64,000 nt of DNA, from NCBI RefSeq assembly GCF_002573715.1, contig NZ_PDHM01000024.1, forward strand, positions 51,676 through 115,675. The letters are read 5' to 3'. Positions 14,446 through 60,631 of this stretch are shown one piece after another. The notes under the pieces were generated by a model that did not search any database, was not told where the DNA came from, and saw only the letters and a list, made by a program, of their open reading frames with translations. Source of the DNA: Paenibacillus sp. EZ-K15 (GTDB taxonomy: Bacteria; Bacillota; Bacilli; Paenibacillales; Paenibacillaceae). How positions within the stretch are numbered: position 1 is the stretch's first letter; the number at the start of each line of letters is the position of its first letter. The position numbers and the translations under genes were made by a program.

Positions 14446-14601
14446 ATGTACGGCTACCAAGTGCCTCCCCCACTCTTTTAACGAAAGGAAGATGAATGTT
14501 TGATGAAAAAAGGATAACGTTGGCACGAGCCCTAATGCCGAACTTAGCAGCGTAGAAGCTTGAGAGAAATCGAGAGCGACCACGGCCATTGAGAGCCAAC
14601 C

Positions 14602-14639
14602 AAAAAATCCCCTTCTTCCCGAAGAGGAAAAGAAGGGGA
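14602..14639 (-). terminator. Terminator of the P-type ATPase gene
   Basis: On the minus strand TCCCCTTCTT / AAGAAGGGGA encloses a short loop and is followed by TTTTTT, about 40 bases past the ATPase stop. Confidence 0.88.
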
Positions 14640-14681
14640 CTTTATCATTAACACAAGCACAGATTAGCGATGACCGATCGA

Positions 14682-16691
14682 TTAACGGCTAGAGCGCAGC
14701 AGACGAAGCCCGTTCAATATAACCAGAATGGTGCTTCCTTCGTGACCGATGACGCCCAGCGGCAGTGCAACGCCTTGAATGAAATTGGCTGCTATCAGCG
14801 TCAAAATCACGGTAATGGCAAAGATCATATTTTGCTTCACGATGCGTTGAACCCGGCGTGCCACTTTGACGGTACCGGCGATTTCGTCGATGTTGTCATT
14901 CATAAGCACCGCGTCCGCTACCTCCAGCGCCGTTCCGCTTCCCGAAACGCCCATGCCGATGCCAACGGTCGCGGTAGCCAGTGCCGGCGCATCGTTCACA
15001 CCATCTCCAACCATGACCACATGGCCGTAACGGGCCCGAAGCTCCTTAATATGTGTAACTTTATCTTCCGGCAGCAAATCGGAGAACACCATGTCTACGC
15101 CGCTTTGCTTCGCAATCACGTCCGCCGTCGCCTTGCGGTCCCCTGTCAGCATCGCTACCTTGATGCCCAACTGCTGAAGCCGCTTAACAGCCATCGCCGC
15201 TTGTGGCCGGACCGCATCCTGCAAAGCGATCATACCCGCGATACGGTCTCCCTTCAGGATAACGGATACCGTCTTGCCTTCGGATTCCAGCGTGTTCCGG
15301 ATAGACAGCCAATGCTGGCGCGCGTTCATTTCCTTTTGTGCGGAAGCTTCACCCGAATACTGATCTACAGTCGGTTGATCCAGAATATCGCTTTTTCCTA
15401 TTTTCCAGGTAATACCCTCTACATCCGCCTGCATCCCCCAGCCTGTTATGGACTGGCCGTTCTCCACCTGCTGCAGTTGAGCTCCCTCTTTCTCAGCCGA
15501 TTGGACAATCGCCAAGGCCAGAGGATGCTTCGACATTCTTTCGATAGAAGCACTGATGCCAAGCAATTCATGCCGATCCCAGCCCTCACCTGCGATAAAA
15601 TCCGTAACCACTGGCGTACCAAGCGTCAAGGTACCGGTCTTATCAAAAGCGACAACCGCCGTACGTGCCATATTCTCGATATGGGCGCCGCCTTTGAACA
15701 GTACGCCTTTTCTGGCGCGATTCGAAATCGCCGACAGCATCGCAGGCATGATCGAAGATACCAGCGCGCAAGGGGATGCCACGACGAGAAACACCATCGC
15801 TTTGTAGAAGGTTGTATCCCAGTCCCATCCCAAGACGGGAGTAGCCAGAACAATCAGGGCCACGGTCGCAATGACAACAACACGGGCATAAATCGATTCG
15901 AACCGCTTGATGAACCGCTGCGATTCCGGTACTTCGTTCTCCGCTTCTTCCACCAGCTTGATAATCTTGGCGAACAACGTTGATTCCGCCGACTGGGTAA
16001 CCTCAATGTACAATACGCCTTCCCCATTCAAGGTTCCGGTAAATACTTCATCGCCTATGGACTTATCGACCGGTACGGATTCACCGGTAATCGAAGCCTG
16101 GTTGACGGAGGAGCTGCCGCGATAAATGTTGCCGTCTGCAGGAATAAGCTCGCCCGGCTTTACCAGAATCAGATCGCCGATCTCCAGCTTGCTGATGGAT
16201 ACCGATACCATCTCCCCCTTCTCGATACGCAGGGCCGTCTCCGGCTGCAGCTCCATCAAGGACGAGATATCCTTGCGGCTTCTCTCCATGGTATAACTCT
16301 CAAGCGCCCCACTGAGGGCAAAAATGAAGATCAGCATTGCGCCTTCATTCCAGTACCCGATCGCTGCAGCTCCCATAGCAGCAGCAATCATTAGCAGATT
16401 CACATCCAGATCGCGCTCCTTCAGAAGGGTCTCCACACCTTCTTTGGCTTTTACCCATCCGCCGACGGCGTAGGATATCACGTACAACACAACAGAGAGC
16501 GGCTCAGACCATTGGCTGGTCAGCCAAGCCACCAGCATCAGCAGGCCGCTGCCCAGTGCAGCCACCACCTCCGCATTGCTCAGCAGGCTGCGTATATCCC
16601 ACTTCCCAGGCTGCCGCGGCTCACGTGGATCGGCTCCATTTTCTATTGTCGATATGCGTCCAGTCGTCGTTTGACTTTGTATCCATTGCAT
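14682..16691 (-). CDS. P1B-4-type metal-efflux ATPase (PfeT/CoaT-like)
   Basis: A 669-aa P-type ATPase. ATG at 16691 is preferred over TTG at 16697 because AGGAAGGTG is correctly spaced to it. Motifs: TGES at 202-205 (actuator), S306-P-C in the metal-binding helix, phosphorylated Asp350 in DKTGTLT, SKHPLA (ATP-binding HP), GDGVND, and HEGST at 650-654. SPC together with HEG(G/S)T defines the P1B-4 subgroup, which includes Bacillus PfeT and Listeria FrvA (Fe2+ efflux) and cobalt exporters. No N-terminal heavy-metal domain is present, as usual for this group. Fur-like boxes upstream favour iron as the substrate. Located in the membrane; single-gene unit. Confidence 0.9.
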   Translation of the reverse strand: MQWIQSQTTTGRISTIENGADPREPRQPGKWDIRSLLSNAEVVAALGSGLLMLVAWLTSQWSEPLSVVLYVISYAVGGWVKAKEGVETLLKERDLDVNLLMIAAAMGAAAIGYWNEGAMLIFIFALSGALESYTMERSRKDISSLMELQPETALRIEKGEMVSVSISKLEIGDLILVKPGELIPADGNIYRGSSSVNQASITGESVPVDKSIGDEVFTGTLNGEGVLYIEVTQSAESTLFAKIIKLVEEAENEVPESQRFIKRFESIYARVVVIATVALIVLATPVLGWDWDTTFYKAMVFLVVASPCALVSSIMPAMLSAISNRARKGVLFKGGAHIENMARTAVVAFDKTGTLTLGTPVVTDFIAGEGWDRHELLGISASIERMSKHPLALAIVQSAEKEGAQLQQVENGQSITGWGMQADVEGITWKIGKSDILDQPTVDQYSGEASAQKEMNARQHWLSIRNTLESEGKTVSVILKGDRIAGMIALQDAVRPQAAMAVKRLQQLGIKVAMLTGDRKATADVIAKQSGVDMVFSDLLPEDKVTHIKELRARYGHVVMVGDGVNDAPALATATVGIGMGVSGSGTALEVADAVLMNDNIDEIAGTVKVARRVQRIVKQNMIFAITVILTLIAANFIQGVALPLGVIGHEGSTILVILNGLRLLRSSR

Positions 16692-17025: not shown

Positions 17026-18135
17026 TCAATCGACAACCGTCGAACATCTGCGGCGCATCTCCAGCCTCGCGCCGGTTATTCGAATGGCTGCAATCTCTGA
17101 GGGCTGACAGCACACTTCGTGTATGCCCTGCCGGTAAACCATCCGTAAATCCGTGGTAGCTACCCCATTGATCCGGAGCGTTAATTGTGGCTTCGTTCGC
17201 CTAATTCGATGGATCATCTCTGAGAAAGCCGCAACCCTGTGTCCTGCCTCATCCGACGATCCGGAATTCTCCGTACCCTCCGAATCGAATACAATCACAT
17301 CGGCCAAACGGGCAATCTCCGCTGCCGCTGCTGGTTTCATCCCTTCTCCGAACAGCGCCCCATAGCGAATACGCACAAAACGCCTTTGATCCATAAGGGT
17401 CTGCTCTGCCACTTCTTCGATAAAATTATGAATCGATATAAAGTCATCCGCGTGCGCCGGACGTACAGCCAGGAGCTCTAATTGGCAATCTACGCCTTCC
17501 TCGCTGCACTGCTCCATAGCTCGGAACAGGGACTCCAGCTGAGCATCCTGCGCTTCACGTAACTCCATCGTGTTGGAAAGCCGGGCATCATGCAGCAAGC
17601 TGACCGCACATCGGGCTCCACCCGCCGCCTGAAACACCGACACCCAATAGGTCTTCCATAGCATAATGAGTCTCCGCCTTAACAGGGCGCTCTTCTCTGC
17701 GCTCCGCGAATTCAACCACGCCGTGTAAACCTCCTGCAGCAGGCCATGCTGCACAGCATCCTCCCCGCGTATCAGCCCAATTCCCTGAGCACCTTGCCTG
17801 ATATCTCGTGCAATGGATTCAGGGTCTGCGGATCGGCTCATGACTTTCAGTCTTCGGTTCCTGTCACTCCACCCCAGCAGTCGGGTCAAGGAAGGTCTGT
17901 CCGTGCCGTTATGCCGGATCCCGGAAACCCTGAGGGCTTCTTCAATATCGTCAGGCGATGCCAGTAACAGCAATACCTCCTCATGGGTGACTCCTCCTGC
18001 CATTGCAAAATGCTTCAGCAGATCCGTCTCGGGAGAAATCTCGTTTGCCATAATCTCCTCTGCTCCGATGAACTCTTCATCTTCAAATCGACGCTCTCCC
18101 AATTCACTGCCAGCTCCCCATTGCCTTTCCGTCAT
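17026..18135 (-). CDS. PEP-utilising-enzyme TIM-barrel-like protein (putative PEP-binding, degenerate)
   Basis: I use the ATG at 18135 (369 aa) because AGGGAGTAGAAGG precedes it; the longer frame to 18264 has a Cys/Ile-rich non-coding look. Residues 116-127 (AQGIGLIRGEDA) match the GIGLxRtE signature of the PEP-binding barrel of pyruvate phosphate dikinase and enzyme I, where R-T-E-H/F is usual. Other barrel strands (RIRYGALFGEGM, IADVIVFDSEGT) follow. The catalytic CGE and phosphohistidine regions are not seen, so it is probably a regulatory or non-catalytic relative. Monocistronic with its own terminator. Role unknown. Confidence 0.6.
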   Translation of the reverse strand: MTERQWGAGSELGERRFEDEEFIGAEEIMANEISPETDLLKHFAMAGGVTHEEVLLLLASPDDIEEALRVSGIRHNGTDRPSLTRLLGWSDRNRRLKVMSRSADPESIARDIRQGAQGIGLIRGEDAVQHGLLQEVYTAWLNSRSAEKSALLRRRLIMLWKTYWVSVFQAAGGARCAVSLLHDARLSNTMELREAQDAQLESLFRAMEQCSEEGVDCQLELLAVRPAHADDFISIHNFIEEVAEQTLMDQRRFVRIRYGALFGEGMKPAAAAEIARLADVIVFDSEGTENSGSSDEAGHRVAAFSEMIHRIRRTKPQLTLRINGVATTDLRMVYRQGIHEVCCQPSEIAAIRITGARLEMRRRCSTVVD

Positions 18136-18409
18136 GGTTATCCTTCTACTCCCTTTCACCTTGAATTGGATAAACGCCTCCTTACAGATTATTATGAAAC
18201 AATTGGAAATATACAGCGCATGGGATAAACAGCGGCTGAAAAATATCGGGAGAGAACGAACCATGCACCCTACTCTCTTTATGCAGAATGCCTGCGCGAA
18301 GGTGGGAAAGCCTGACCCTATCTATTTTTCCTCATTTCACGGACAGGATAAAACCTGTACAATGGAGGAATGAATCGAAGACGCATGAAAACGTAAGGGA
18401 GAGTTGAAC

Positions 18410-19145: not shown

Positions 19146-20480
19146 TCACTTTTTATACTTGTCCTCACCGAAATCGATGTTCATTATCCGAGCGACCAAA
19201 TGCGGTAAGTCCGTATTATTGTGTAGTCCGCGGAATAACTCAGATCCCGGTCCAAAAGCATACAGCGGAACATCCACACCCGTATGCAGATAGGTATTCC
19301 ATCCCACGAGGGAACGTTTGCTGATGACTTGATTTATAGCTTGCATAGCGTCAGAAGCATTGATAATTGCGATTTCTTCCTCAGGCGTCACATCGATGCC
19401 AGCATAAGCTTTGAGCACCTCTTTGACATTGCTTCTATCCGTCTTCAGCTGTTTAGTCATATAGAGTCCGGATGCTTGTACCTGCCGCAGCACCTCCAGT
19501 TTGGCGTCCGTTTGATCATATCCTCCGACCGCCATTCCTCCGGTGTCGTGATCACCGGCTATAACGACTAGCGTGTTCCCGTCCTCTTCTGCAAACTTTC
19601 TTGCCAGCTCCACTGCTTCTTCGAACGATTCCGTGTCCTTCATGGCCCATGCGGCATCATTGTAGTGACCGGCCGAATCAATCTGGCTTCCTTCCACCAG
19701 CAGGAAAAAACCGTCCTTGTCTCTACGGAGAATATCGATCGCTTTTCCCGTCATTTCTTTCAGGCTTGGTTCGTTCGTATGCTCCCGGTCCAGCTCAGGC
19801 GCCATGTCTCCGTCCGCGAACAAACCGAGAATTCGGTTTCCTCTTGCTAATTCCAGTTGAGTCCGGTTCTCAACTACATGATAACCTCTCTGTTTCGCTT
19901 CTTCCAACAGATTGCGGCTGCTTTGCTTCCCTCCCATCGTCTCAGGAAGAAAGAAGGCCTTACCTCCCCCTAGCAAAACATCCGCAATTTGCAGTTGCTG
20001 CGACGCAATATGGCTTTCATCTTTCCTTGAGAATACATGCGATGAGAACGCAGCTGGGGTCGCATCGGTAATGCTCGAAGTAGCTACGAGACCGGTTGCC
20101 TTACCCTGTTCGCGGGCCGCCTCAAGAATCGTCTTACGCTCAATCCCATCGGGAGTCCTCCCGATCATTCCGTTATTCGTCTTGTATCCCGTGGCCATTG
20201 CAGTCGCCGCAGCGGCTGAATCGGTGAGCGCGGAATCAGCCGAATATGTCCTTACCATGCCCACAATCATGGAGTCCATCACAGAGGGCTCACCCTTGTA
20301 CAAGCGGTAGTTGGCTGCATAGGCAGGTGAAAATCCATCCGGAATCATAAAGATTACGTTTTTGGCCTTCGTACGAGAATTGGAGGCGGCTGCCTCCGCC
20401 GATTGGTCAGCCTGTAAACCCAAAATGCAGCATACCAGCACAAGAGTCAATATGGCAGCAGCTGAAAGCTTAATTTTCAC
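19146..20480 (-). CDS. Exported alkaline phosphatase (PhoA superfamily)
   Basis: A 444-aa protein starting with GTG at 20480 behind GGTGAGG. A signal peptide covers about residues 1-31 (hydrophobic, ending AEAAA). Metal and catalytic motifs: VIFMIPDGF (metal Asp), catalytic Ser88 in LTDSAAAATAMATG, DSAGHYNDAAW, AGDHDTGG and LHTGVDVPLYA. All active-site groups look intact. It releases phosphate from organic monoesters outside the cell. Usually PhoPR-regulated, but no clear Pho box was identified here. Confidence 0.92.
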   Translation of the reverse strand: MKIKLSAAAILTLVLVCCILGLQADQSAEAAASNSRTKAKNVIFMIPDGFSPAYAANYRLYKGEPSVMDSMIVGMVRTYSADSALTDSAAAATAMATGYKTNNGMIGRTPDGIERKTILEAAREQGKATGLVATSSITDATPAAFSSHVFSRKDESHIASQQLQIADVLLGGGKAFFLPETMGGKQSSRNLLEEAKQRGYHVVENRTQLELARGNRILGLFADGDMAPELDREHTNEPSLKEMTGKAIDILRRDKDGFFLLVEGSQIDSAGHYNDAAWAMKDTESFEEAVELARKFAEEDGNTLVVIAGDHDTGGMAVGGYDQTDAKLEVLRQVQASGLYMTKQLKTDRSNVKEVLKAYAGIDVTPEEEIAIINASDAMQAINQVISKRSLVGWNTYLHTGVDVPLYAFGPGSELFRGLHNNTDLPHLVARIMNIDFGEDKYKK

Positions 20481-20595: not shown

Positions 20596-22851
20596 CTACA
20601 GCAGCAGCTTGCTCAGCACGTTGTCACTGATACGGACTACATTGTTGTTATAATCGTTCCAACCTAGGCTGCCGGCCCAGTTAACCGAACCGACAGAGAA
20701 CACAGCGCCGCCGCCATGAATATCAAAATAAGTCATGTCCGCCCGCACGAGCGGATTTGTGGTGCCTCCCTGACCTGGTGCAGTATGAAGTTGATCTTCA
20801 TGCACGAATTGGTAGTTATCGTCATGACCGGTCGACGTCGCAAGACGCAGCGTGTGCGGAGGTGTTCCGAAACTCAGATCGTAACGGTCGATCTCATCGC
20901 CAGCTGCTCCTCCGGCAGCATGTCCGAAATCACCAATGATCTCGTTCTCGTCGATACCCTCAAAAATAAACCCGGCTTCCGGTTTGAAGCTGTCGTCTAA
21001 CCGCCGGTAGCCGGCAGCAGACCCGCCACCCAAAGCGCTAGTTCCTACACCGACTAGACGCTGGGGCACATAACCATGGTGACGCCATAGACCACCGGAC
21101 TCCCCCGTCGTGCTGTGGAACAGTTCACCCGGAGGAGAATCCGAAGCACGTGAACCGGCGTTACCGCGCCTTACTTCCAATAGTGACGGCCGGTCCGGCT
21201 CAAGACTCGTCACCCAATAAAACCCGTTTCCGCCTAAATACATGACCCGCCCGCCGTTCGCTAAATATTGCTCCAGCGCCTTCATCATCGGTCTCGTCCA
21301 GTATTCGGGATGGCTGCCGGTGATCAGCACCTTGTAAGGGCTCAATAGATGAACTCCCTCATGATGCAAATCCTCGTCCGTAGCAACGTCATAGCTCTGA
21401 CCCCGTTTTTCCAGCCACCCTGTAATGTACAGATCGGCGGAAAAGTGGCGGACAGCCCGCCAATTACGGTAGTGAGGCCGGATATTCAGAAGCGGTCGCA
21501 GACGGGATGAGAATTGCACGCCGCTGCCATCGTTATGCAGGTCGTAGATGGAGTTGCCCACCTCGGGATGTTCATCCAAATAAACGTCCTGGGAAGGAAG
21601 AACGTAGTCCTCACCCAGATAGTCTTTGGCAAATTTAAACAGCCGTTCGTTCCCGTAAGCCAAATAAGTATTAGTCGGCGCAAGAAACAGAACGGGTGCA
21701 CTTACGGTTCCTTGAAGAGGGCGAACAAAGAAAGGAATAAAGTCTACGCTGCCTTCAGCTTCAAGTTTGAGCGCATATATTCCGCTCGGCAGATCGTCCG
21801 GGATTTTCCAGGAAATATCAATCTCCCACTCGGCATCGACAAGATCATTATCATGAAAGTGAACAGCCGCATATTGTTTAGGTGCGTGCCGGTAGTCCAG
21901 GTGTTCCCCAGTCCAGCTGTGACTGGTTACCGCCCTTGTTCCCCCCTGATGCAGGGTGCCGTGGTAGCCGCCTGCCGACAGGTCCTCAAGGCGTGTTGAA
22001 GCAATATCGACGCTGAAATCGTAATCCGCAAGGGGAACAACGCCAATTCCGTCTGTGCCAAGCAGCACGTCCGATAACAACTCCTCGGGTAGAAGCTCTC
22101 CCCAGAACCGGGGATTGCCGATTTTGCCATTGTAATGATGAATGGTGCGTCCCGGAGCGGCAGGGTCGGAATCCGCAGCGAGCAGCACACGCGCTAAGGC
22201 GACATTGCTGTAATCCAGATTTGCAGCAGCGGTATGAACTTGTAGGCCATCATCCGCCTTCCACCCGTCCCGGCTGGTGACAAAAAGCTTGGCTGCCTGT
22301 GTGCTTGCAGCATACTGAAGGACTACGGAATACCATATATTTTCCTTAAGCGGGATATCGGTGCGGACTGTAACGGATTGCCCGCAGCCCCCGGTTAGGG
22401 ATAACGCCAGACGTCCGTCAGTTTCCAATGCCAGGGCAGCGCCGGATGTGCCATCTGCTGAGCGTGCGGACCAGACGGTCTGGATATAGTCATAGATGGG
22501 AACCGTCGGGTAAATCCACAGCTGTGCCGAGAATTCGCCGCTCTGCATCCAATTTCCCGGCAGGGGCAACTCGGCATAGGAACCTGGAGCCGTTATCTGC
22601 CGTCGCCCAGGATATTCACCTGCACAATCTGCCGTCACCGGTTCTGTCGGCAAAAAAGTCGAGTTGTCCGGATCAGGCATTCCTCCGATTAAACGCACAA
22701 CATTAGCCGTATATACCGAGCTTCCGGTATCAATCATAAAGTGCAGATCTTGACCGGGCTGGACGCTGAATTCATTCGTATACCCGATAATAGTTACAGG
22801 ATTTGGCGCCTGCGGATCGGTCACATTCGCCTTCACATCTTCTTTGGACAT
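20596..22851 (-). CDS. N,N-dimethylformamidase large-subunit-like protein with LamG-like domain
   Basis: ATG at 22851 is preferred because GGGAGGA lies at ideal spacing; a longer frame to 22941 lacks one. The 751 aa match the size of the Paracoccus DMFase large subunit. Roughly residues 80-310 form a concanavalin-A/LamG-type sandwich (ALALETDGRLALSL, WYSVVLQYAAST). The C-terminal part has the DMFase-type fold with His514-Pro-Glu516 in GSHPEYW, corresponding to the His/Glu ligands of the DMFase mononuclear iron. The small subunit needed by the studied enzyme is not seen nearby. Probably hydrolyses an amide; the substrate is unknown. It lies just downstream of the biosynthetic locus but beyond its terminator. 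Confidence 0.75.
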   Translation of the reverse strand: MSKEDVKANVTDPQAPNPVTIIGYTNEFSVQPGQDLHFMIDTGSSVYTANVVRLIGGMPDPDNSTFLPTEPVTADCAGEYPGRRQITAPGSYAELPLPGNWMQSGEFSAQLWIYPTVPIYDYIQTVWSARSADGTSGAALALETDGRLALSLTGGCGQSVTVRTDIPLKENIWYSVVLQYAASTQAAKLFVTSRDGWKADDGLQVHTAAANLDYSNVALARVLLAADSDPAAPGRTIHHYNGKIGNPRFWGELLPEELLSDVLLGTDGIGVVPLADYDFSVDIASTRLEDLSAGGYHGTLHQGGTRAVTSHSWTGEHLDYRHAPKQYAAVHFHDNDLVDAEWEIDISWKIPDDLPSGIYALKLEAEGSVDFIPFFVRPLQGTVSAPVLFLAPTNTYLAYGNERLFKFAKDYLGEDYVLPSQDVYLDEHPEVGNSIYDLHNDGSGVQFSSRLRPLLNIRPHYRNWRAVRHFSADLYITGWLEKRGQSYDVATDEDLHHEGVHLLSPYKVLITGSHPEYWTRPMMKALEQYLANGGRVMYLGGNGFYWVTSLEPDRPSLLEVRRGNAGSRASDSPPGELFHSTTGESGGLWRHHGYVPQRLVGVGTSALGGGSAAGYRRLDDSFKPEAGFIFEGIDENEIIGDFGHAAGGAAGDEIDRYDLSFGTPPHTLRLATSTGHDDNYQFVHEDQLHTAPGQGGTTNPLVRADMTYFDIHGGGAVFSVGSVNWAGSLGWNDYNNNVVRISDNVLSKLLL

Positions 22852-23133
22852 TCTTACATTCCTCCCGTAGTTCAAAGTTTTTCTTTGTACAACGTGAATC
22901 GGTTCTGTTATGCCTGCCATGAATAAGATGAGAACAAACACCTGGGTTCCTTCCTCTTATACCGCATACAAGTTTTCGAAAGTCTTCCATAAGTTGTATG
23001 AGATATAATAGAATTATAGCATGTAAATATTATGGTAAGAAGGCAAAACTTGTTATAATAAATAAAATCTACTGAATATTGGCAGGGATATCAATTGATC
23101 TTTGCATGATTATCCACCTGTTTATTCAATAAA

Positions 23134-23183
23134 ATGAAAAATACCATGACGAAGCAGGAATAATTCCCGCTTCGTCATGGTAT
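23134..23183 (-). terminator. Terminator closing the biosynthetic locus
   Basis: On the minus strand AATACCATGACGAAGC / GCTTCGTCATGGTATT forms a long stem with a T-rich exit, 35 bases past the last ACP gene. The AT-rich 22852-23133 interval presumably carries the promoter of the DMFase-like gene (a TATAAT is present on the minus strand near 23020) but no confident -35. Confidence 0.88.
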
Positions 23184-23217
23184 TGTGAGGATCCTATCTT
23201 CTGATGCCTGCTGTAAT

Positions 23218-23472
23218 TCAGGAGTTCTCCCGTTTGCTCTTAATCACCCATTCCGTCAGGTTCTTAACACTGCTGATTGAATCCAGAGTCAAATCATCCT
23301 CGTCCACCGTAAAGTCAAACCGCTTCTCTAACTCCGCAAGCAGTCTAATAAATGTCATAGAATCCAATACTCCGGCCGTGCCAATTAAGACGGTATCATT
23401 ATCAACAAATGACAACTGAAGCATTTTCTTAATTATGTCCGTAATCTCTTGTTCGATCGCATCGCGGTTCAT
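23218..23472 (-). CDS. Free-standing acyl carrier protein
   Basis: 84 aa, ATG start. Ser38 in GVLDSMTFIRLL is the expected phosphopantetheine site (D-S-M), in the usual four-helix ACP frame with acidic helix II. It lies three bases after the free FkbH gene, the arrangement seen when FkbH loads a three-carbon glyceryl unit onto its own ACP. It differs from the hydroxymalonyl ACP at 58.4 kb, which has N-S-L. Likely carries an acyl or glyceryl group used by the adjacent GNAT or by the NRPS/PKS; this partner assignment is inference. Confidence 0.88.
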   Translation of the reverse strand: MNRDAIEQEITDIIKKMLQLSFVDNDTVLIGTAGVLDSMTFIRLLAELEKRFDFTVDEDDLTLDSISSVKNLTEWVIKSKRENS

Positions 23473-23475
23473 CGT

Positions 23476-24510
23476 TCATTCTCCAATCTCGAGCCAATTA
23501 AATACTTTGTGCGGAAGCGGCAGTTGCAGTATGTAAGTGGATGCCAAGTCATCCGCAGCGGATTTCTTGAAGCCCAGCATTTCCAATAACAGTCTGGCCG
23601 GTAAATTTCGCTGTTTGCGCACCAATCGGCACCGTACAGCTTTCGCCATCGGCACCTGTTGTCCCAGCCGTTCAAGAACCGTATATAAAAATGCCGAAGC
23701 GATGCCACGGCCTTCGATCCGACAGGAGATGCAAAAGAGATCAAGATTGATCTCTGCGTCGACGATATTCACAAAACAGGTCCCGATAAGCCCGTGCGCG
23801 CCGAACCGATCCTCAAGCTTGGCCACATACAAATAGCGGCCGTCCTGCTTGCAATAGGAATCGACGAACGTCATGTCAATTCTCTCCAGCAAACTGTTCA
23901 TCTGATTCGTACGATGGGACAATTCAACAACCCGGGGGTAATCCCTCTCCTGCGCTAATCGGATCTGCAGCTTCATACCGCATTCCTTTAAAAATTGCTC
24001 CCGGCTTCCCTTGTGCTCTTTTTGGGCTTCTTCTCTCCTAGATCGCGCCTGCATATATTGACGCCGGTTCTCCGATTCCTCGGTCGCATGACCGATCTGA
24101 AATTCGGGGTACTCAGGCAAATCCCGAAATTGACGGGCGTCATATGTACGTATCTGAGGAGCATAATAGTTTATTTCAAACCGTTCGAACGGATCATTGT
24201 CGATCAAAGCCAGCGTATCCAATCCGATGTTCAGTTCCTTCGCTATCCGTTCCATACTGAGCGCTTTTGAGTCAAAATGACACTGTGGATACAGAAAATA
24301 TTGACCGACGCCCAGCTCCTCCAGCTTGCTTTTCACCTGGTCCCAATTGTTGCGGCTGGCTATGCTCTGAACAATTCCGCGTCGGTCCAATGTATCGAGG
24401 ACATTTATTATCCCCGGCAGCAGTTTAATGCCTGCTTCGTCTTCTTTAAGCGTCCCCTGCCACAACGTATCGTCTAAGTCCCATACTAGACATTTAATCT
24501 TGGGGTCCAT
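23476..24510 (-). CDS. FkbH-like HAD-IIIC protein (glyceryl-ACP-forming type), second free copy
   Basis: 344 aa. Nucleophile motif D11-L-D13-D-T15 in VWDLDDTLWQG, then SIASRNNW, ALIDNDPFE (second HAD acid pair) and a GNAT-like C-terminal half with HRTNQMN, RFGAHGLIG and SCRIEGRG. Studied FkbH proteins dephosphorylate 1,3-bisphosphoglycerate while placing the glyceryl group on an ACP. The start overlaps the GNAT gene by 17 bases and the ACP follows by three bases, so translation is coupled. The D-D-T instead of D-N-T at the third motif position is a minor difference. Not the hydroxymalonyl FkbH, which is the copy at 58.7 kb. Confidence 0.88.
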   Translation of the reverse strand: MDPKIKCLVWDLDDTLWQGTLKEDEAGIKLLPGIINVLDTLDRRGIVQSIASRNNWDQVKSKLEELGVGQYFLYPQCHFDSKALSMERIAKELNIGLDTLALIDNDPFERFEINYYAPQIRTYDARQFRDLPEYPEFQIGHATEESENRRQYMQARSRREEAQKEHKGSREQFLKECGMKLQIRLAQERDYPRVVELSHRTNQMNSLLERIDMTFVDSYCKQDGRYLYVAKLEDRFGAHGLIGTCFVNIVDAEINLDLFCISCRIEGRGIASAFLYTVLERLGQQVPMAKAVRCRLVRKQRNLPARLLLEMLGFKKSAADDLASTYILQLPLPHKVFNWLEIGE

Positions 24511-24952
24511 TAGGAAATAGCTCCATCGTCAAATGTGTCGGCTTGAAGCCGTATTTCTTATAGAGAAGCCGCATCGGCAAGTTGCTCACATGCACCTTAC
24601 CTACGATCTGCGTAACTTCCTCGCTTCTGCAGTAGTTCATTCCCGCCTCGAAGAGCTCATCGACATAGGCGGTTCCCCGGCAGGATTCAGCAATATAGAA
24701 ACTTTTGAAATTCGCATACGTCTCTTTGGTAACCGAGTTTTTACGCGGGGTTATCCACATCCAGCCTGAGACTTCCCCATCCACATCGAGAACAAGCATT
24801 CCTTCCCTTTCATATCGAAGAGCCTTTTCTAGCTTTTTCGTATGAAATAGAGGATCGGTAATCGCATCTTCTCCGAATGAAATCATGGAGATTTCTGTCT
24901 CGAATATTGTAATAACGGGAATATCCTGGGGCTCGATTTCTCTAATCGGCAT
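24494..24952 (-). CDS. GNAT-family N-acetyltransferase
   Basis: 152 aa from the ATG at 24952, behind GGAG; a longer frame into the upstream gene is unlikely. GNAT features: MLVLDVDGEVSGWMWI (beta4), FYIAESCRGTAYVDELFEAGMNYC (motif A with R-G-T-A replacing R-G-x-G-x-G/A), and KVHVSNLPMRLLYKKYGFKP (motif B, N..A..LY.K.GF). It transfers an acyl group from CoA or possibly ACP to an amine. Its position between a polyamine synthase and an FkbH-ACP pair suggests that a polyamine or the final antibiotic is the acceptor. Self-resistance by N-acetylation is the main alternative. Confidence 0.82.
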   Translation of the reverse strand: MPIREIEPQDIPVITIFETEISMISFGEDAITDPLFHTKKLEKALRYEREGMLVLDVDGEVSGWMWITPRKNSVTKETYANFKSFYIAESCRGTAYVDELFEAGMNYCRSEEVTQIVGKVHVSNLPMRLLYKKYGFKPTHLTMELFPNGPQD

Positions 24953-24977
24953 CTTGCTGTAACTCCAATCTGTATTC

Positions 24978-26147
24978 TTATGCGTTCTTTTTTTGAATGA
25001 GCTCGAAAGTCTCATAGCGGCAGCCCGGGCAGCCCTCTTTCTTCAGGTGCTCAATCGTTTGCCACTCCATTTGGAAACCTACTTCGGTCACGCGATTACA
25101 GCGTTTGCACTCGTATAAGCGAACCGTACGTTTGACTTCTCCGGTATACAGCGCTTGCCTGTATTCACGTTCGATACTTTCATGCGTCTCTTCAGTAGAT
25201 TGTAACACAATCATCTGGCTTGTGTTACCAATAATTTCCGCACCGATATATTCATTGAAGCGAGGCAAGACACTCGTCACTAACAAGCCCATATTGGCAA
25301 ATTCGCGCTGCATCGCCAAGGTAAAGTCAGGCGATTTGTGGGCGAACGACAGGAAGATAGGCAGTCCTACATCCCGCTTCAGCAATTGAATTCCGCGGGA
25401 GACGAATAACGACATCCCCTGCTGTGTATAAGGCGGATCGGTGAACACGCAATCAAAGCGGTGCAGAAATTCAGACGGAAGCTGTTCGCGAAAATCCATT
25501 TCGTAGCAGACGATAGGCAAATCTTCGGTTTCCGCCAGATAGTTCACATAGCTGGTAATACGTTTGTCAATTTCGAATACGTAAATACGGGTGTTCGACT
25601 TGGAGGCATCATTACGATAAAGCTGCTTCAGCAGAAACGCCAGCGACACGCTGACGAGATCATCGTCCCCCAGACAAACGATGTCCCTGCCGATTAGAGC
25701 CTCGTGACGAAGCGCCAGAACAGCCCGGTTCATGCTCGTAGCCAGAGTGCAGCTTGACTGATCAATCGTAACATCGACCTGAGGCCGTCCCTCAAAAACG
25801 CTCTCCAGCTTGGTCATCATGTCCTTCAGTTCGTCAGGCTGCCACTGCTCGTACTTCAAACGCTGATACAGGTCATGCTCCAAATCGCCGAACCCCATCA
25901 CTTGCTCGACAAAACGGCTTCCTCTTGCCGTGCAGTTCACCCCCCGCTTTTGTTCAATGAGGCCAACCTTGATTAGCTCTTTCTTAATTGCGGACACCAG
26001 CGGCAGGGGCAGCAGCGTTTTTCTGGCAATCTCTTTGGTGGAAATGCCCGGTTTGAAGTAAATATCCAGAAGAATATTCTCAATTACTTTTTTTCCTTCC
26101 TTCATTGACACTTGAGAATAAACGTAATCTATCAGTTCCTCGTTCAT
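24978..26147 (-). CDS. BpsA-like branched-chain polyamine synthase (aminopropyltransferase) with zinc ribbon
   Basis: 389 aa from the ATG at 26147, which has GGTGG seven bases upstream. An N-terminal winged helix (about 20-80) is followed by a Rossmann methyltransferase-like domain with G160-D-D-D-L164 and T236-D-P-P-Y-T241, the signature pair of bis-aminopropyl spermidine synthase. C347/C350 and C373/C376 form a C-terminal zinc ribbon. Characterised BpsA enzymes from thermophiles add aminopropyl groups from decarboxylated SAM to spermidine, giving tertiary or quaternary branched polyamines. Such a gene inside a mesophilic NRPS/PKS locus is unusual. It heads a four-gene unit after the PKS terminator. 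An N-methyltransferase acting on another amine is a weaker alternative. Confidence 0.75.
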   Translation of the reverse strand: MNEELIDYVYSQVSMKEGKKVIENILLDIYFKPGISTKEIARKTLLPLPLVSAIKKELIKVGLIEQKRGVNCTARGSRFVEQVMGFGDLEHDLYQRLKYEQWQPDELKDMMTKLESVFEGRPQVDVTIDQSSCTLATSMNRAVLALRHEALIGRDIVCLGDDDLVSVSLAFLLKQLYRNDASKSNTRIYVFEIDKRITSYVNYLAETEDLPIVCYEMDFREQLPSEFLHRFDCVFTDPPYTQQGMSLFVSRGIQLLKRDVGLPIFLSFAHKSPDFTLAMQREFANMGLLVTSVLPRFNEYIGAEIIGNTSQMIVLQSTEETHESIEREYRQALYTGEVKRTVRLYECKRCNRVTEVGFQMEWQTIEHLKKEGCPGCRYETFELIQKKNA

Positions 26148-26159
26148 ATATTTACCACC

Positions 26160-26250
26160 AGCTCCTTTAATAAATATATTATCCAACACAATGCACAATT
26201 GTATATTATTGTATTCCCATGAAGCTCAATCATTATCCTATATTTACCAT
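26160..26250 (-). promoter_or_regulatory. Candidate promoter/operator of the polyamine-GNAT-FkbH-ACP unit
   Basis: An AT-rich stretch with ACAATTGT palindrome at 26195-26202 flanked by further CAAT/ATTG arms, a TAATAT and a TTGAGC-18-TATACA pair on the minus strand. Because a terminator precedes it, this gap should contain an independent promoter; the palindrome could bind a regulator. Confidence 0.4.
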
Positions 26251-26304
26251 AAAAAAGCAAGGCATCCGTTGACAGGCGATAGCCTTGTCTCATGATGCCT
26301 TGCT
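26251..26304 (-). terminator. Terminator after the last PKS gene
   Basis: On the minus strand AGCAAGGCATC / GATGCCTTGCT closes a structured 27-base loop and is followed by TTTTTT. It separates the PKS transcript from the four downstream genes. Confidence 0.85.
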
Positions 26305-26321
26305 GGTAAATTTGCCTCGTA

Positions 26322-29300
26322 TTATTCCATGACAGAGATTCGAATGAACGGACTTAATTGATGAATCGTGCGATATTTGAATAATTGCTGTCCTTCTGCC
26401 GATAAACCTTGTTTCTCCATTTCGATCTCAACCCGAATAGCATGAAGGGACGTTCCGCCCAGCCGGAAAAAATCGTCATCAATTCCGATGCCGCCGATCC
26501 CGAGCACCCGTTCCCAAATTTGCACTAAGGCTTCCTCTGTCTGATTGGACGGCGCCCGGTACGGAGCTCTCAGAGCTGCGCTCTCTTCTACTTCCTTTAC
26601 CGGAATCTGGAGCATCCTTGAAGCGTCAGAATACTGCAGCGGAAGCAAATGTCGGCGATGCTGCTGATTTTCACGGCCGCTGAGAACTTCTTCCCAGCCC
26701 GTTCTCTCTAAACTTCGCACCGTCCCTGCGGCGGTGCCCGCTTCTCCTTGATTTTCGCTGCCGCTGAGCTGAGACTGGGTCAGTCCTGCGCCGGGCAGTG
26801 GCTCGTTAAGGACTTCAATATGCTTGATGGAATCAGGGATATCCTTTACTGCAATCCGGAAACGCACCTTGCGGCCGGACTCCTCCGTGATGCTCCACGG
26901 TCCCGATCTCAAAAATGCGAGCAGCGGCTCATTTTTCCCGGTAATTGTGCACACAGCCTCCATATATTCGACCTTCCGTTCATGGCAATAAGCCTTTAAA
27001 GAACTGATTACGGCTGACTCGATCCCTCTCCCAAGAATGCGGCAGCTGAGCAGGAATACATCCAGATGAACAATGTCGTTTTCGAAGCGCGTTATGACCG
27101 CCCCTGTCAGTCCGTAATGCCCGAACCTGTCTGAGGCTTCAATCGCCCAGCATTTCGTATCCGGTTCAGCCCGCGTGGCTACCAGCTCACTCTCTGACAT
27201 TATATCTGCGTTCAGCGTGAATTGATTGGTGCGCTGCGTCAGCTGGGCTATGCGGGGCAGTTGTTCAGCAGTTGCTTCGTAAATGCCCAGTCTAAGCTCC
27301 AATTCGTCGAGAAAAGTCTGCAGAGAGGGAGCCGAAGAACGAATTTGTCTGCGCTTGCGCTCTGAGACATACATTTCGGTTCTCCGTCTATCCTCTTCTG
27401 TGACGCGCAGGCGATCTGTTGCCCAGATATGCTCCAGGAATGCCGGGATTAGACGCTCTTCAGGAAGCTGAAGCGTAAGGACTTCCGGACACTGTAACTG
27501 TACCTCGGAACATTCCAGCGAACTGTCATCGATGAAGATAAAACTGTCTAGTCCTAACCCCAGTTCTTCCGCCAATGAAAGCAAGTTTTCGGATTTTAAG
27601 TTCCAATTGATCCGCGTTCCCGCAAAATGTTCTTTTTTAAGCAGCATGTCCGGGTTATTGTCCAGTACATTCCATACATCTGCTTCATTATTCTTGCTGA
27701 CCAGCACCAGCAGCATGCCTTCTTGCTGCTTGCTCAGCAGATACCGCTGGAACTCGCGGTAGGGACCGGAGGCTGTTACCCCTGCCGCTCCATCCTCCCC
27801 GCATACCCCACGCCAGAGCGTGTTATCGCAATCCACCGCAATAACTTTGAAGGGATGTCCCTGCCAAGCGAGCAGCCGGCGTGCAATAAGAGTACCGATT
27901 GCCGCATAAGATTCCGGTGTAAACGGCATATGTGCAGCTTCATCGGCAGTGGAATCGTGTATGTGTTCAATACCGAACATGGAGCCAAGCTCTCTGAAAT
28001 CGATAACCTGAACATAATCCAGCCTTTCCAATTCGCGCTTCCAACGATTCCCGAGCTCTTCCAGGTAGCTCTCCATGACCGGAGAAGCCCCTAATGAAGC
28101 GGATACGGGAAACACTCCGGCGAATATCGGGCCCGTTCTCCGGCCGGCAGATAATGTCTGCAGCAGATCGGCCAGTGCTCGTTCGAGCTTTTTAATCTGC
28201 TGGGCCTCCGGAGAGCGGTCATCCCTCAACCAATCTTCAAAGCGGACGAGCAGCAGTCCCGCAGCCTCTTCGGACGAGAAGGAGCTGTCCGGGTTCAATA
28301 GCTCCTGAAACACTTGTTGATATGGTGCAAAACGGATGTCAACACGTGTTCCGAACTGCTCTCCCCACCAGCTGACATAAGAACGAATCGGGTCCGCAGT
28401 AAAGGTAGAGACGGCCGTTACGGTAAAGACACGCTCCGGCAGCGAACTGCTTCTTTTTGCCGCCGCTTCGGCCTCCTGCTCTTCGGTGAACAGCCGGATT
28501 TCGCTCAATTCAATAGCCGGGTTTTCCAGAGCCAGTTCAATCAGATCCGTAAAATGCCCCATGAGTCCCGCCATGGTTGCTTCCGCGAACAAAGCGGTAT
28601 TGTACTGCATGACACAGAGCAAGCCGCCATGATCCGCATAGCCGATATCGAGTTTGAAATCGAGCTTGGAAATTCCCTTCGTAATTTCAAAGTTCTCGAA
28701 AGTGAGTCCTTCTGCGGTAAGCACGGTGTCACCATCAAATTCATTGTGAAAAATCATCATCGTATCAAACAGAGGATTACGTCCGCGCGGTAGTTTCGCC
28801 GAGAGCTTCTCGACCATCCGGTCGAACGGGAAGTCTTGATTCTCATATGCATTCATCATCGTGTCATTCAGAATAAGCAGTTGATCGAGAAGACTGAGCC
28901 GGTCTTGGAAACGGACCCGGATCGGCAGGAAGTTCGTGAACATGCCTATTAAAGGCTCCACATCGGCATGCCGCCTGCCTGCCACCAGCGAGCCGACCGT
29001 AATGTCGTCCTGACCGGTATATTCATGCAGCACAATCGTGTATAGATGAAACAAGAGCACATTAATCGTAACATTCTGCGATTTGGCCAAAGCATTCAGC
29101 CGGTCTGCGGTTTCCTTGGACAGGCTGATCTTGTGCGCTCTGCCGACAAACGATTGAAATTCAGGTCTCTCGAAGTCATACGGCATGTTCAGCACAGGGA
29201 TTGTCTGCCGGAACTGGTTCATCCAATAATCCTCTTGCTTCCGAATAACATCCCCGCTCAACAGGCGATGCTGCCATTCCGCGAAATCCTTATATTGAAT

Positions 29301-32300
29301 GCGCAGAGGCGGGAGATCTTTTCCGGCATACAGATCGCTGAATTCCTTAATAAACACATTCATTGAAGCGCCGTCCGAAACAATATTGTGCATATCCATA
29401 AACAGCACATGTTTCTCCGGCTCTATTCGAACGAAAGCGGCGCGAATAAGAGGGGCTTTGCCCAGATCAAACGGCCTGATAAACTTCCGCATGATTTTCT
29501 TCAAATCTTCCTCGTCCGCTTCCATGCGTTCCACGGTAAACGTGAAACTCTCATGAATTTGCTGAACCGGTTCTCCGTCTACCATATGAAACGAGGTGCG
29601 CATGTTCTCATGACGGTGAATCAATTGAATGAAAGCCTGCTCAAAACGATCCGCTTCCGCTTTTCCGTGCACCCACAAAGCCATCGGCATGTTGTAAGTC
29701 GTTACCGAACCGATTTGCTGATGAATGAGGAACGTGCGTTTCTGTGCAGAGGACAAGCGGTAGTAAGGTTTGCTCTCTGCCGGTTCGATTGCAAAATATT
29801 TATTTTTAGCTTTCTGTCCGATATAACGGGCAAGCGCACTTATCGTCGGCATGTTGAATATATCCGACAAAGCCAGCTCCACATCAAGTTCCTTGTGAAT
29901 CTTAGTGATCAGACTGGTCGCTTTCAAAGAATGCCCGCCTATTTCGAAGAAATCCTCATGAATTCCGATGTGCTCCAAGCCGAACAGATTGCGCCATATG
30001 CCGGCCAGCGTCTCTTCCAGCGGGTTGCTTGGTTCGGATAACCCATTCTCTTTCTGGGTCTCTATCCGGTCATCCCGCTCCGTAATAGCTTGTTGTCCTG
30101 CCCTCTTCCCTGGCAAATCGGAGTGGACGATCTGGATCCCTTCCTCATCCAGCCAGAAACGGCGACGGTCAAACGGATAAGTTGGCAAAGGAATACGGTT
30201 TCTTTTCTCTTCCCCGTAGAAACGGGCCCAATTTATTTTTATCCCCGCATTCCACAGACGCCCCACTTGAAGGAGCAGGTAAGCGACATCAGAGGTATTC
30301 TGCTTCGGATGACGCAGGAGGTTCACCATAACACGCTCTTTAGGGGCCCCGGCTGAGTTTTTGGAGAATTCATGATGACTCTTCGCAAATGCGGTCAGGG
30401 CATTGCCTCCGCCAACCTCTACAAACGCAGCATCCATTTCGTTCATCAGGGTACTGAGCCCGTCTGAGAACCTTACCGTGCCGCGCAGGTGCTGTGCCCA
30501 GTAAGCGGGACTGATTGCCTGCTCATCCTGAATCCAGGTCCCCGTGACATTGGAAATAAAGGGCAACTGCGGTGCTTTCAGCACAAGCTTGCCTACCTCG
30601 CGCTCATAGGCTTCCAGAATGGGTTCCATCATGGCGGAATGGAAGGCGTGTGACGTGTGGAGACGACGGCATTCGACTCCTTTCTCTTCCAAGGAACCGG
30701 CCAATGACTCTACCGCTTCCGAAGTGCCGGAAACAACGCACATGGAAGGAGCATTCACCGCAGCCAGCGATACGCCGCCGGACAACAGTGGAAGTATCTC
30801 CTGCTCGGTCAGCGGGACGCTCAGCATGACACCACTTGGCAGACTCTGCATCAATTGACCGCGAAGGGTAACGAGCCGCACTGCATCCTCCAGCGAGAAG
30901 ACGCCTGACAGACATGCGGCGACATATTCACCGATGCTGTGCCCGATCATGACTTGCGGCTGTACTCCCCATCTCATCATCAGTCTGGCAAGCGCATATT
31001 CGACCGTAAACAGAACCGGCTGGGCAATGTCAGTCCGGTTAATAAGTGACGTATCCGGCTCATCGGCGGAGGGATATAGAACCCGCTTCGCCTCATGGCC
31101 GATCTCATCCGGCATCAGCTCGAAGCAGCGGTCCGCCTCCTCGCGAAACACCGGTTCCTGTTCATACAACTCCCTGCCCATTCCGCTGTACTGCGAGCCT
31201 TGGCCGGAAAACATGAATACGACCGGCGGCTCATCGACAGAGGCAAATCCGTTCTGAACTTCGGGCGAACCAGGTTGAGCAAGCAGCATGACCGCTTCAT
31301 CCGCGCTTCCGCAGACCAGTGTCCTGCGGTACGCGAAAGCAGCCCTTCCCTCATGGAGCGTATAGGCCATATCTGCGAGGCTCACGTCAGGATGCTCCTG
31401 CAAATGCAGCGCTATCCGCTCCGTCAGTCTGTCGAGCGATGCTTCCGTCTTGGCCGACAGAGAGATAAGCTGCGCCGACCTGCCCCGTGAGGAAGCGGAA
31501 GCAGGCGGCGCTTCCTCCAGGACAACATGCGCATTCGTGCCGCCGATGCCAAAAGAGCTGACGCCTGCCCGGAGAGGGAAGGCATCGTTGGTCCAGTCTT
31601 TTAACCGGTCGTTAACAAAGAACGGACTGTTCTCAAAATCGATTTTGGGATTCGAACGTTCATAGTGAAGTGTAGGCGGCAGCTGTTTATGGGTCAGAGC
31701 GAGCACGGTCTTAATGAATCCGGCTACCCCTGCGGCGTTGTTTAGATGCCCGATGTTGGATTTAACCGAGCCGATGCCGCAGTATCTCTTCTTGTCCGTT
31801 TGAAAAGCGGTCTTCAATGCTTCGATTTCGATTGGATCGCCAAGTGTCGTACCTGTACCGTGCGCTTCAATATAGCTGATGCTTTCCGGCTCCACTTCAG
31901 CTACATGATGAGCGGCACGGATTACGGACGCCTGACCGGATGTACTAGGAGCGGTATAGCCTACTTTTCGGCTGCCGTCATTATTGATCGCCGAGCCTTT
32001 AATTACAGCGTATATATGGTCGCCGTCTGCAAGCGCATCCTCCAGCGGTTTCAAGGCGACAATCCCGGCGCCCTCACCGAAGACGGTGCCCGCCCCTTTC
32101 TCGTCGAAGGCCCGGCAATGGCCGTCAGGTGAATTAATCATCCCTTCCTGATAGAAATAACCGGCTCTCTTGGGCAGTTGTATCGATACGCCGCCGGCCA
32201 GCGCCATGCTGCACTCCCCGCTGAGCAGACTTTGACAAGCAAGATGAATGGCAACAAGCGAAGTCGAACAAGCTGTCTGCACCGTAAAGCTCGGTCCCTT

Positions 32301-32819
32301 CATATTGAGCTTATAAGAAACAAGCGTGGCCATATAATCGCGTAAATTCAGCATAGCCGTCTCCAGGGTGGCGGATTCTTCCGCTGTTCCCAGCCCCTTG
32401 AACGCGCGCATGAACCAGTTGGAATTAAAAGCCGCGCCTATATATAACCCGATCGAGCCTCTATATGTCTTGGGATCATAACCCGCTTGTTCGAGCGCTT
32501 CCCAGGAACATTCGTGCATAAGACGGAACTGCGGATCCATAAGTTCGGCCTCGCGAGGCGTATAATCGAAGAATTCGGGATCGAAGTACTCGAGATCATC
32601 GAGTACTCCCTTGGCCTTCACATAATTAGGGTGAGTCACCGTCTTCACATCGATGCCTTCTTCCAACAGCTCTTCATCACTGAAAAAAGAGATACTCTCC
32701 TTGCCGCTGCAGAGGTTATTCCAATATTCCCGCAAGTTTTTGGCTCCCGGAAACCTACCGGACATGCCGATTACGGCAATTTCCGAACCGTTATACTCTC
32801 TACCGTTCGATATGCTCAT
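26322..32819 (-). CDS. PKS/NRPS hybrid: KS-AT-ACP-C-FkbH-ACP
   Basis: 2165 aa. KS with Cys183 (QTACSTS) and EAHGTG; AT with Ser627 in GHSIGEY and HAFHS near 723, the malonyl-CoA type; ACP Ser about 963 (GGHSLKA). No KR, so this is a non-reducing last extension module, predicted to leave the keto group that becomes the phenol at C8 of a dihydroisocoumarin. A condensation domain (about 1000-1440) follows with H-N-I-V-S-D-G near 1142: the second, catalytic His of HHxxxDG is Asn. Then comes an SGNH-like linker and an embedded FkbH domain with VDCDNTLWRG at about 1661, and a final carrier domain with Ser about 2123 (LGGTSLH). There is no thioesterase or reductase. Its ATG overlaps the upstream PKS stop by four bases. 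Confidence 0.93.
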   Translation of the reverse strand: MSISNGREYNGSEIAVIGMSGRFPGAKNLREYWNNLCSGKESISFFSDEELLEEGIDVKTVTHPNYVKAKGVLDDLEYFDPEFFDYTPREAELMDPQFRLMHECSWEALEQAGYDPKTYRGSIGLYIGAAFNSNWFMRAFKGLGTAEESATLETAMLNLRDYMATLVSYKLNMKGPSFTVQTACSTSLVAIHLACQSLLSGECSMALAGGVSIQLPKRAGYFYQEGMINSPDGHCRAFDEKGAGTVFGEGAGIVALKPLEDALADGDHIYAVIKGSAINNDGSRKVGYTAPSTSGQASVIRAAHHVAEVEPESISYIEAHGTGTTLGDPIEIEALKTAFQTDKKRYCGIGSVKSNIGHLNNAAGVAGFIKTVLALTHKQLPPTLHYERSNPKIDFENSPFFVNDRLKDWTNDAFPLRAGVSSFGIGGTNAHVVLEEAPPASASSRGRSAQLISLSAKTEASLDRLTERIALHLQEHPDVSLADMAYTLHEGRAAFAYRRTLVCGSADEAVMLLAQPGSPEVQNGFASVDEPPVVFMFSGQGSQYSGMGRELYEQEPVFREEADRCFELMPDEIGHEAKRVLYPSADEPDTSLINRTDIAQPVLFTVEYALARLMMRWGVQPQVMIGHSIGEYVAACLSGVFSLEDAVRLVTLRGQLMQSLPSGVMLSVPLTEQEILPLLSGGVSLAAVNAPSMCVVSGTSEAVESLAGSLEEKGVECRRLHTSHAFHSAMMEPILEAYEREVGKLVLKAPQLPFISNVTGTWIQDEQAISPAYWAQHLRGTVRFSDGLSTLMNEMDAAFVEVGGGNALTAFAKSHHEFSKNSAGAPKERVMVNLLRHPKQNTSDVAYLLLQVGRLWNAGIKINWARFYGEEKRNRIPLPTYPFDRRRFWLDEEGIQIVHSDLPGKRAGQQAITERDDRIETQKENGLSEPSNPLEETLAGIWRNLFGLEHIGIHEDFFEIGGHSLKATSLITKIHKELDVELALSDIFNMPTISALARYIGQKAKNKYFAIEPAESKPYYRLSSAQKRTFLIHQQIGSVTTYNMPMALWVHGKAEADRFEQAFIQLIHRHENMRTSFHMVDGEPVQQIHESFTFTVERMEADEEDLKKIMRKFIRPFDLGKAPLIRAAFVRIEPEKHVLFMDMHNIVSDGASMNVFIKEFSDLYAGKDLPPLRIQYKDFAEWQHRLLSGDVIRKQEDYWMNQFRQTIPVLNMPYDFERPEFQSFVGRAHKISLSKETADRLNALAKSQNVTINVLLFHLYTIVLHEYTGQDDITVGSLVAGRRHADVEPLIGMFTNFLPIRVRFQDRLSLLDQLLILNDTMMNAYENQDFPFDRMVEKLSAKLPRGRNPLFDTMMIFHNEFDGDTVLTAEGLTFENFEITKGISKLDFKLDIGYADHGGLLCVMQYNTALFAEATMAGLMGHFTDLIELALENPAIELSEIRLFTEEQEAEAAAKRSSSLPERVFTVTAVSTFTADPIRSYVSWWGEQFGTRVDIRFAPYQQVFQELLNPDSSFSSEEAAGLLLVRFEDWLRDDRSPEAQQIKKLERALADLLQTLSAGRRTGPIFAGVFPVSASLGASPVMESYLEELGNRWKRELERLDYVQVIDFRELGSMFGIEHIHDSTADEAAHMPFTPESYAAIGTLIARRLLAWQGHPFKVIAVDCDNTLWRGVCGEDGAAGVTASGPYREFQRYLLSKQQEGMLLVLVSKNNEADVWNVLDNNPDMLLKKEHFAGTRINWNLKSENLLSLAEELGLGLDSFIFIDDSSLECSEVQLQCPEVLTLQLPEERLIPAFLEHIWATDRLRVTEEDRRRTEMYVSERKRRQIRSSAPSLQTFLDELELRLGIYEATAEQLPRIAQLTQRTNQFTLNADIMSESELVATRAEPDTKCWAIEASDRFGHYGLTGAVITRFENDIVHLDVFLLSCRILGRGIESAVISSLKAYCHERKVEYMEAVCTITGKNEPLLAFLRSGPWSITEESGRKVRFRIAVKDIPDSIKHIEVLNEPLPGAGLTQSQLSGSENQGEAGTAAGTVRSLERTGWEEVLSGRENQQHRRHLLPLQYSDASRMLQIPVKEVEESAALRAPYRAPSNQTEEALVQIWERVLGIGGIGIDDDFFRLGGTSLHAIRVEIEMEKQGLSAEGQQLFKYRTIHQLSPFIRISVME

Positions 32820-58437: not shown

Positions 58438-58440
58438 CGC

Positions 58441-59760: not shown

Positions 59761-59772
59761 CGTTATCCCTCC

Positions 59773-60627: not shown

Positions 60628-60631
60628 GAAT

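Follow-up and report, generated by a model that had tools for sequence, protein, structure and literature searches.

We identified a conserved four-gene cassette in the window analysed here, a 64,000-nucleotide stretch of the Paenibacillus sp. EZ-K15 genome (contig NZ_PDHM01000024.1, positions 51,676 to 115,675). The cassette encodes a relative of the branched-polyamine synthase BpsA, a GNAT N-acyltransferase, a stand-alone FkbH protein and an acyl carrier protein (ACP), and it directly follows the last polyketide synthase (PKS) gene of a cluster that, judged by its gene content, is of the amicoumacin (dihydroisocoumarin) kind. The four genes form a real, dedicated cassette. With moderate confidence we propose that it most likely makes an acylated polyamine through an ACP-fed arm, and that the PKS-linked copies most likely serve the amicoumacin-type pathway.

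The cassette runs from position 26147 to 23218 on the minus strand as one tight operon. The first gene (24978–26147) encodes a BpsA-like protein of 389 amino acids, a putative aminopropyltransferase of a zinc-ribbon subfamily, which matches PF01861 with 133.8 bits (cut-off 27). It is followed by the genes for the GNAT (24494–25015, 173 amino acids; PF00583, 36.5 bits, cut-off 20.7), the FkbH protein (23476–24510, 344 amino acids; TIGR01686, 220.2 bits, cut-off 146.65) and an 84-amino-acid ACP with a phosphopantetheine serine (23218–23472; PF00550, 31.7 bits, cut-off 20.8). These domain matches bear out the preliminary description, which had placed four tightly packed genes after the PKS. The BpsA-like and GNAT genes overlap by 38 bases and the GNAT and FkbH genes by 17, while three bases separate FkbH from ACP; an alternative GNAT start is possible 21 codons downstream (24952). 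The ATG of the BpsA-like gene lies 174 bases after the end of the last PKS gene, and at this boundary there is a hairpin with a T-run, a likely terminator (26240–26325, minus strand; fold -34 kcal/mol, z -6.57). A second T-run hairpin with a 20-pair stem lies 3' of the ACP gene (23130–23200, minus strand; z -10.29) and is likely the cassette terminator. A consensus terminator scan listed only the latter, the hairpin upstream of the BpsA-like gene being outside the scan's loop limit. Given the T-run hairpins before the BpsA-like gene and after the ACP gene, the four genes look like a separate operon. A consensus promoter scan showed no excess of candidates (10 found compared with 6.5 expected).

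A further 23 genomes have the same four genes in identical order, and the cassette is thus more than a chance arrangement. To survey its distribution, an alignment of seven cassette GNATs was searched against 84,980 genomes, one per species. This yielded 21 loci, all in Paenibacillus. All four genes were found by tblastn in 19 of these, nine adjacent to the PKS (L065–L071, L082 and L083) and ten without it (L072–L081); the other two, L084 and L085, are damaged cassettes. With the window and loci in genomes G504 and G671 included, the PKS-linked loci number 12, and in all of them the complete cassette follows the last PKS gene directly and in order. Adding loci from G014 and G645 to the ten gives 12 further genomes with a complete cassette and no PKS nearby. 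Here 'PKS-free' means that none is present in the fetched stretch, which covers at most 10 kb per side and is cut by contig ends in several cases; in L081 a weak PKS-like match (25%) lies a few kilobases from the cassette. The search recovers BpsA-GNAT-FkbH-ACP as a conserved unit. The preliminary description had offered either a conjugation branch of the dihydroisocoumarin pathway or an independent pathway, and both settings exist. No paper on such a cassette was found in open PubMed Central, which omits subscription papers, by a search made mostly at listing level. FkbH matches on plasmids came from 53 records, all below 60% identity, in a search for FkbH alone.

Because the GNAT itself was the query, the scan is biased, and co-occurrence was examined more fairly in 392 genomes sampled from the order. 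The tail of the last PKS was present at 55% identity or more in nine genomes and the GNAT in 22. All nine PKS-bearing genomes have the GNAT, leaving 13 GNAT-positive genomes without the PKS, one of which has only a partial match. The next PKS-tail matches reach at most 47% and lie in uninspected reading frames. Fisher's test for co-occurrence gives 9e-13; this ignores kinship and is no true probability, since the nine genomes share descent. Two order samples of equal size and with shared handles were used, and likewise two class samples, the identity of the sets being unproved in both cases.

The BpsA-like protein contains the PF01861 BpsA_C domain and the BpsA catalytic-domain fold, and by sequence it belongs to a distant zinc-ribbon subfamily of BpsA, the N4-bis(aminopropyl)spermidine synthase (EC 2.5.1.128). 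The GDDD motif (Asp159/Asp160) for decarboxylated S-adenosylmethionine (dcSAM) is kept in 35 of 35 copies; 13 additional copies had been chosen by this motif and are excluded from the count. The motif is described as indispensable for dcSAM use in the part of PMC12979288 available to us. In a fold search with the predicted model, which barely tests the N- and C-terminal parts, BpsA structures score clearly higher, a point against a methyltransferase. A BpsA-like gene is present in 15 of 120 relatives, and every one of these carriers (15/15) also has SpeD, which is only permissive for the synthesis of an N4-branched polyamine. A BpsA-like gene had been thought unexpected in an antibiotic locus; its frequency among relatives does not support this. 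In the class sample 37 genomes have a BpsA-like match, the strong ones being 25 and a fragment. It had also been reasoned that a BpsA-like gene common among relatives, without the other three genes, would speak against a link to the cluster. Solo BpsA-like genes are indeed chromosomal in relatives, but the other three genes strongly co-occur with the cluster copy.

As a solo gene the zinc-ribbon subfamily is common in some other Bacilli, mostly family f32 (L148, L150–L171). The genome that holds the window (G000) carries a second, solo BpsA-like gene on contig C7 (L059, 9414–10580), with another GNAT gene upstream whose product has a canonical-looking coenzyme A (CoA) loop. Cassette and solo copies are intermixed in BpsA trees, and we did not retain the idea that solo genes are mere remnants of the cassette, as the f21 and f32 solo copies allow both loss and gain.

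The canonical CoA glycine loop of GNAT enzymes has the form R-x-x-G-x-G/A. In the cassette GNAT this is replaced by RGTAYV, and none of the 24 copies has glycine at the fourth position; YycN in the same alignment reads RGKGYA. Among solved structures, those closest in fold to the GNAT model are the polyamine acetyltransferases DpA and SSAT, at 15–18% identity and by a small margin, with other GNATs within 1–2 Z. Unlike DpA and SSAT, the cassette GNAT lacks the canonical loop and is accompanied by FkbH and ACP. Among the structural matches listed, none was recognised as an ACP-dependent GNAT, which is uninformative either way. GNAT-kind N-acyltransferases also occur in amicoumacin and related antibiotic loci, namely AmiS of Xenorhabdus bovienii and PamZ of the paenilamicin locus, the latter so named. 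By the partial descriptions used for this comparison, PamZ depends on acetyl-CoA and both enzymes act on the antibiotic. The acyl-polyamine role suggested earlier fits the absence of the canonical CoA loop from all 24 copies, the polyamine acetyltransferases nearest to the model, and the constant company of SpeD.

The DxDxT, SRN, K, D and SCR residues of FkbH are intact in all 24 copies, as is the DS motif of the ACP with its phosphopantetheine serine, when aligned columns are compared. Stricter pattern counts gave 22, 18 and 19 of 24 for FkbH and 23 of 24 for ACP; these fall below 24 because the patterns are too strict, and the aligned columns decide. We take the SCR cysteine to be the carrier of the acyl group. 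A stand-alone FkbH with intact residues next to a stand-alone ACP is also what we take to characterise the glyceryl-loading pairs of the tetronate and methoxymalonyl pathways. However, the cassette operon differs from these pairs in lacking dehydrogenases and a ketosynthase III and in having the GNAT and BpsA-like partners. We rejected the second FkbH and ACP as suppliers of an extender unit, as no dehydrogenases accompany them and a hydroxymalonyl set is present elsewhere in the cluster.

These features suggest the following route to an acyl-polyamine. Based on its motif, its fold and the co-occurrence of SpeD, the BpsA-like enzyme would move an aminopropyl group from dcSAM to an amine. FkbH, whose residues are intact, would load a three-carbon acid, presumably glyceryl from 1,3-bisphosphoglycerate, on the cassette ACP. 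The GNAT, without the usual CoA loop, may then transfer the ACP-bound acyl group to the polyamine as an amide. The cassette would have been fixed once beside the amicoumacin-type PKS in one lineage, and it stands alone in several Paenibacillus. Selection on the four genes is seen in ratios of nonsynonymous to synonymous substitution of 0.085 to 0.188 between the window and L067 and L070; for wider pairs, saturation prevented an estimate. In each of the four trees the PKS-linked copies make up one clade (12 BpsA, 10 GNAT, 12 FkbH and 12 ACP rows) on a long stem, which fits one joining of the cassette with this PKS.

Several points weigh against this proposal, which is drawn from genes and not from observed chemistry. 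The preliminary description had called the first enzyme a branched-polyamine synthase, and PF01861 and GDDD agree with this, but hallmarks of the studied enzymes are absent. The position of Glu259 in the enzyme Tk-BpsA is held by the histidine of AHKSP, a motif found in 35 of 35 copies, and the acidic C-terminal tail that carries the aminopropyl group (DDE-type in classical BpsA) is replaced by a CxxC..CxxC ribbon, with scattered acidic residues persisting upstream of it. In addition, the subfamily carries DPPY, known from amine methyltransferases. The enzyme may do something else, and the cassette may be a mere neighbour of the PKS. The best structural matches of the GNAT model score hardly above other GNATs, and similarity of fold would not show function. 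That FkbH loads a three-carbon acid on a carrier protein is our expectation for the family, and glyceryl in particular is presumed from family knowledge. Copies that share one lineage cannot be counted as separate events. For P. profundus Sl 79, production of a known isocoumarin antibiotic has been reported, and the available parts of the reports (PMC12698334, PMC12843358) do not mention a polyamine; for strain M4.5 the available part of PMC12698334 gives no isocoumarin-like cluster by antiSMASH. The P. profundus genome with the cassette is that of strain YoMME, not Sl 79.

The strongest hint of a link between the cassette and the antibiotic comes from two genomes of other Bacilli outside the order, G132 and G467, which match the last PKS protein at 49% (over nearly its full length) and 55%. 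Both have the core cluster with an AmiN-like kinase of the APH family in the cassette's slot. The two kinases are 58% alike, and neither genome is among the 37 of the class sample with a BpsA-like match. Neither the window nor the other PKS-linked loci contain a match to the kinase. Among 11 other genomes searched the best match is 32%, with none in cassette-bearing G092 and G718; the best in G000 is 31% and lies elsewhere in the genome. The accessible part of PMC7235827 describes AmiN as a kinase that confers self-resistance and AmiO as the phosphatase responsible for activation, and that of PMC5055758 describes a X. bovienii cluster without amiN and amiO in which the N-acetyltransferase AmiS inactivates amicoumacin. 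The slot exchange, together with a DMFA2_C (dimethylformamidase-like) gene that comes next in 10 of 12 loci and an AmiO-like phosphatase in 7 of 12, leaves a self-protection role open, comparable to that of AmiS. Under such a role the cassette would replace AmiN: the GNAT, fed by FkbH and ACP and perhaps with aminopropyl extension, would acylate the antibiotic's amine, and the DMFA protein would remove the mask. We consider masking of this kind rather unlikely. Twelve genomes carry the cassette without such a PKS, the phosphatase is still present in those seven loci, the DMFA gene is missing in the most divergent PKS-linked lineage (L083, L116), and the BpsA-like enzyme has no clear part. The cassette product may be attached to the antibiotic, or the cassette may take over self-protection from AmiN. 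A fuller version of the acyl-polyamine proposal can be put forward only tentatively. The amicoumacin-type pathway of Paenibacillales may have dropped the AmiN phosphate mask, with an ACP-fed GNAT joining the antibiotic to a glyceryl-polyamine from the zinc-ribbon aminopropyltransferase, and the lone cassette may make an undescribed class of glyceryl-polyamine.

Alternatively, the cassette could be a small independent pathway to its own acyl-polyamine, next to the PKS merely by common descent. The likely terminators on both sides, the 12 complete PKS-free copies and the 13 of 22 GNAT-positive genomes of the order sample that lack the PKS are consistent with this. However, all 12 PKS-linked loci retain the adjacency, even where identity in the last PKS protein has fallen to approximately 65%, while the DMFA and phosphatase genes beyond the cassette are missing in some, and the PKS-linked copies form long-stemmed clades of their own, so that we think independence improbable. 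It is also quite doubtful that the BpsA-like protein is an amine or nucleic-acid methyltransferase and that no polyamine is made, given the constant GDDD, the fold search results and the invariable presence of SpeD.

If acyl-polyamines are indeed made, the cassette would extend amine acylation by a carrier-protein route, provide a role for the large family of zinc-ribbon BpsA-like proteins in Bacilli and explain what takes the place of AmiN in the amicoumacin-type clusters of Paenibacillus. The PKS-free copies would allow this chemistry to be tested with four small genes.

The assignment of the surrounding locus to the dihydroisocoumarin type, made in the preliminary description, is supported by the set and order of AmiA to AmiM genes. 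For the product itself, the isocoumarin antibiotic reported from P. profundus Sl 79 is indirect evidence at most. AmiA-, B-, D- to G- and I- to M-like genes occur in ami order when compared with the gene lists in the available parts of PMC4894447 and PMC5055758. The core genes (57271–62902, minus strand) encode an acyl-CoA dehydrogenase, an ACP, the first FkbH and a 3HCDH protein (the hydroxymalonyl-ACP set), a thioesterase and an AmiB-like peptidase of beta-lactamase fold. The AmiI- to AmiM-like megasynthases are among the large genes upstream of the cassette, and an AmiA-like nonribosomal peptide synthetase (NRPS) and a BtrH_N-like protein extend past the window's right end (L086). The cluster resembles the ami cluster of Bacillus and that of the related xenocoumacin in its gene order, a probable AmiC and, in 7 of 12 loci, the AmiO-like phosphatase. 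It differs in that BpsA-GNAT-FkbH-ACP fills the slot of the AmiN-like kinase, a DMFA2_C gene is added, and the probable AmiC lies ahead of AmiA in the four Paenibacillales clusters inspected. This BtrH_N-like protein (L086, 4108–5130) scores 28 bits, just under the cut-off. In G132 and G467 a BtrH_N-like gene is between the AmiB-like gene and the thioesterase gene, and the protein is therefore probably AmiC. It was rejected as a part of the cassette because such a gene is present in all six clusters inspected, two of which have no cassette.

The last PKS/NRPS gene (AmiM-like; 26322–32819, minus strand), directly upstream of the cassette, encodes ketosynthase, acyltransferase, ACP, condensation, FkbH-like and peptidyl carrier protein domains (KS-AT-ACP-C-[FkbH-like]-PCP). 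The C-[FkbH-like]-PCP tail (26322–28500) has an intact DCDNT motif. No FkbH-like domain is named in the last PKS by the amicoumacin domain list in a figure legend of PMC4894447. This tail was considered and rejected as the reason for the cassette, as the tail also occurs in G132 and G467, which have no cassette.

The next gene after the cassette encodes the DMFA2_C amidase candidate (20596–22941, minus strand; PF20254), which also has a laminin-G-like domain and is a possible amide-cleaving partner. Beyond it lies the AmiO-like alkaline phosphatase gene (19146–20480, minus strand; PF00245), whose product is 37% identical to its G132 counterpart. In L082, one of the seven loci with this gene, the phosphatase reads as two pieces (14496–15787), through either true damage or a break of frame. 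The gene at 17026–18264, flanked by those for the phosphatase and a metal P-type ATPase, encodes a 412-amino-acid protein without a Pfam hit that resembles pyruvate phosphate dikinase only weakly, in its central part.

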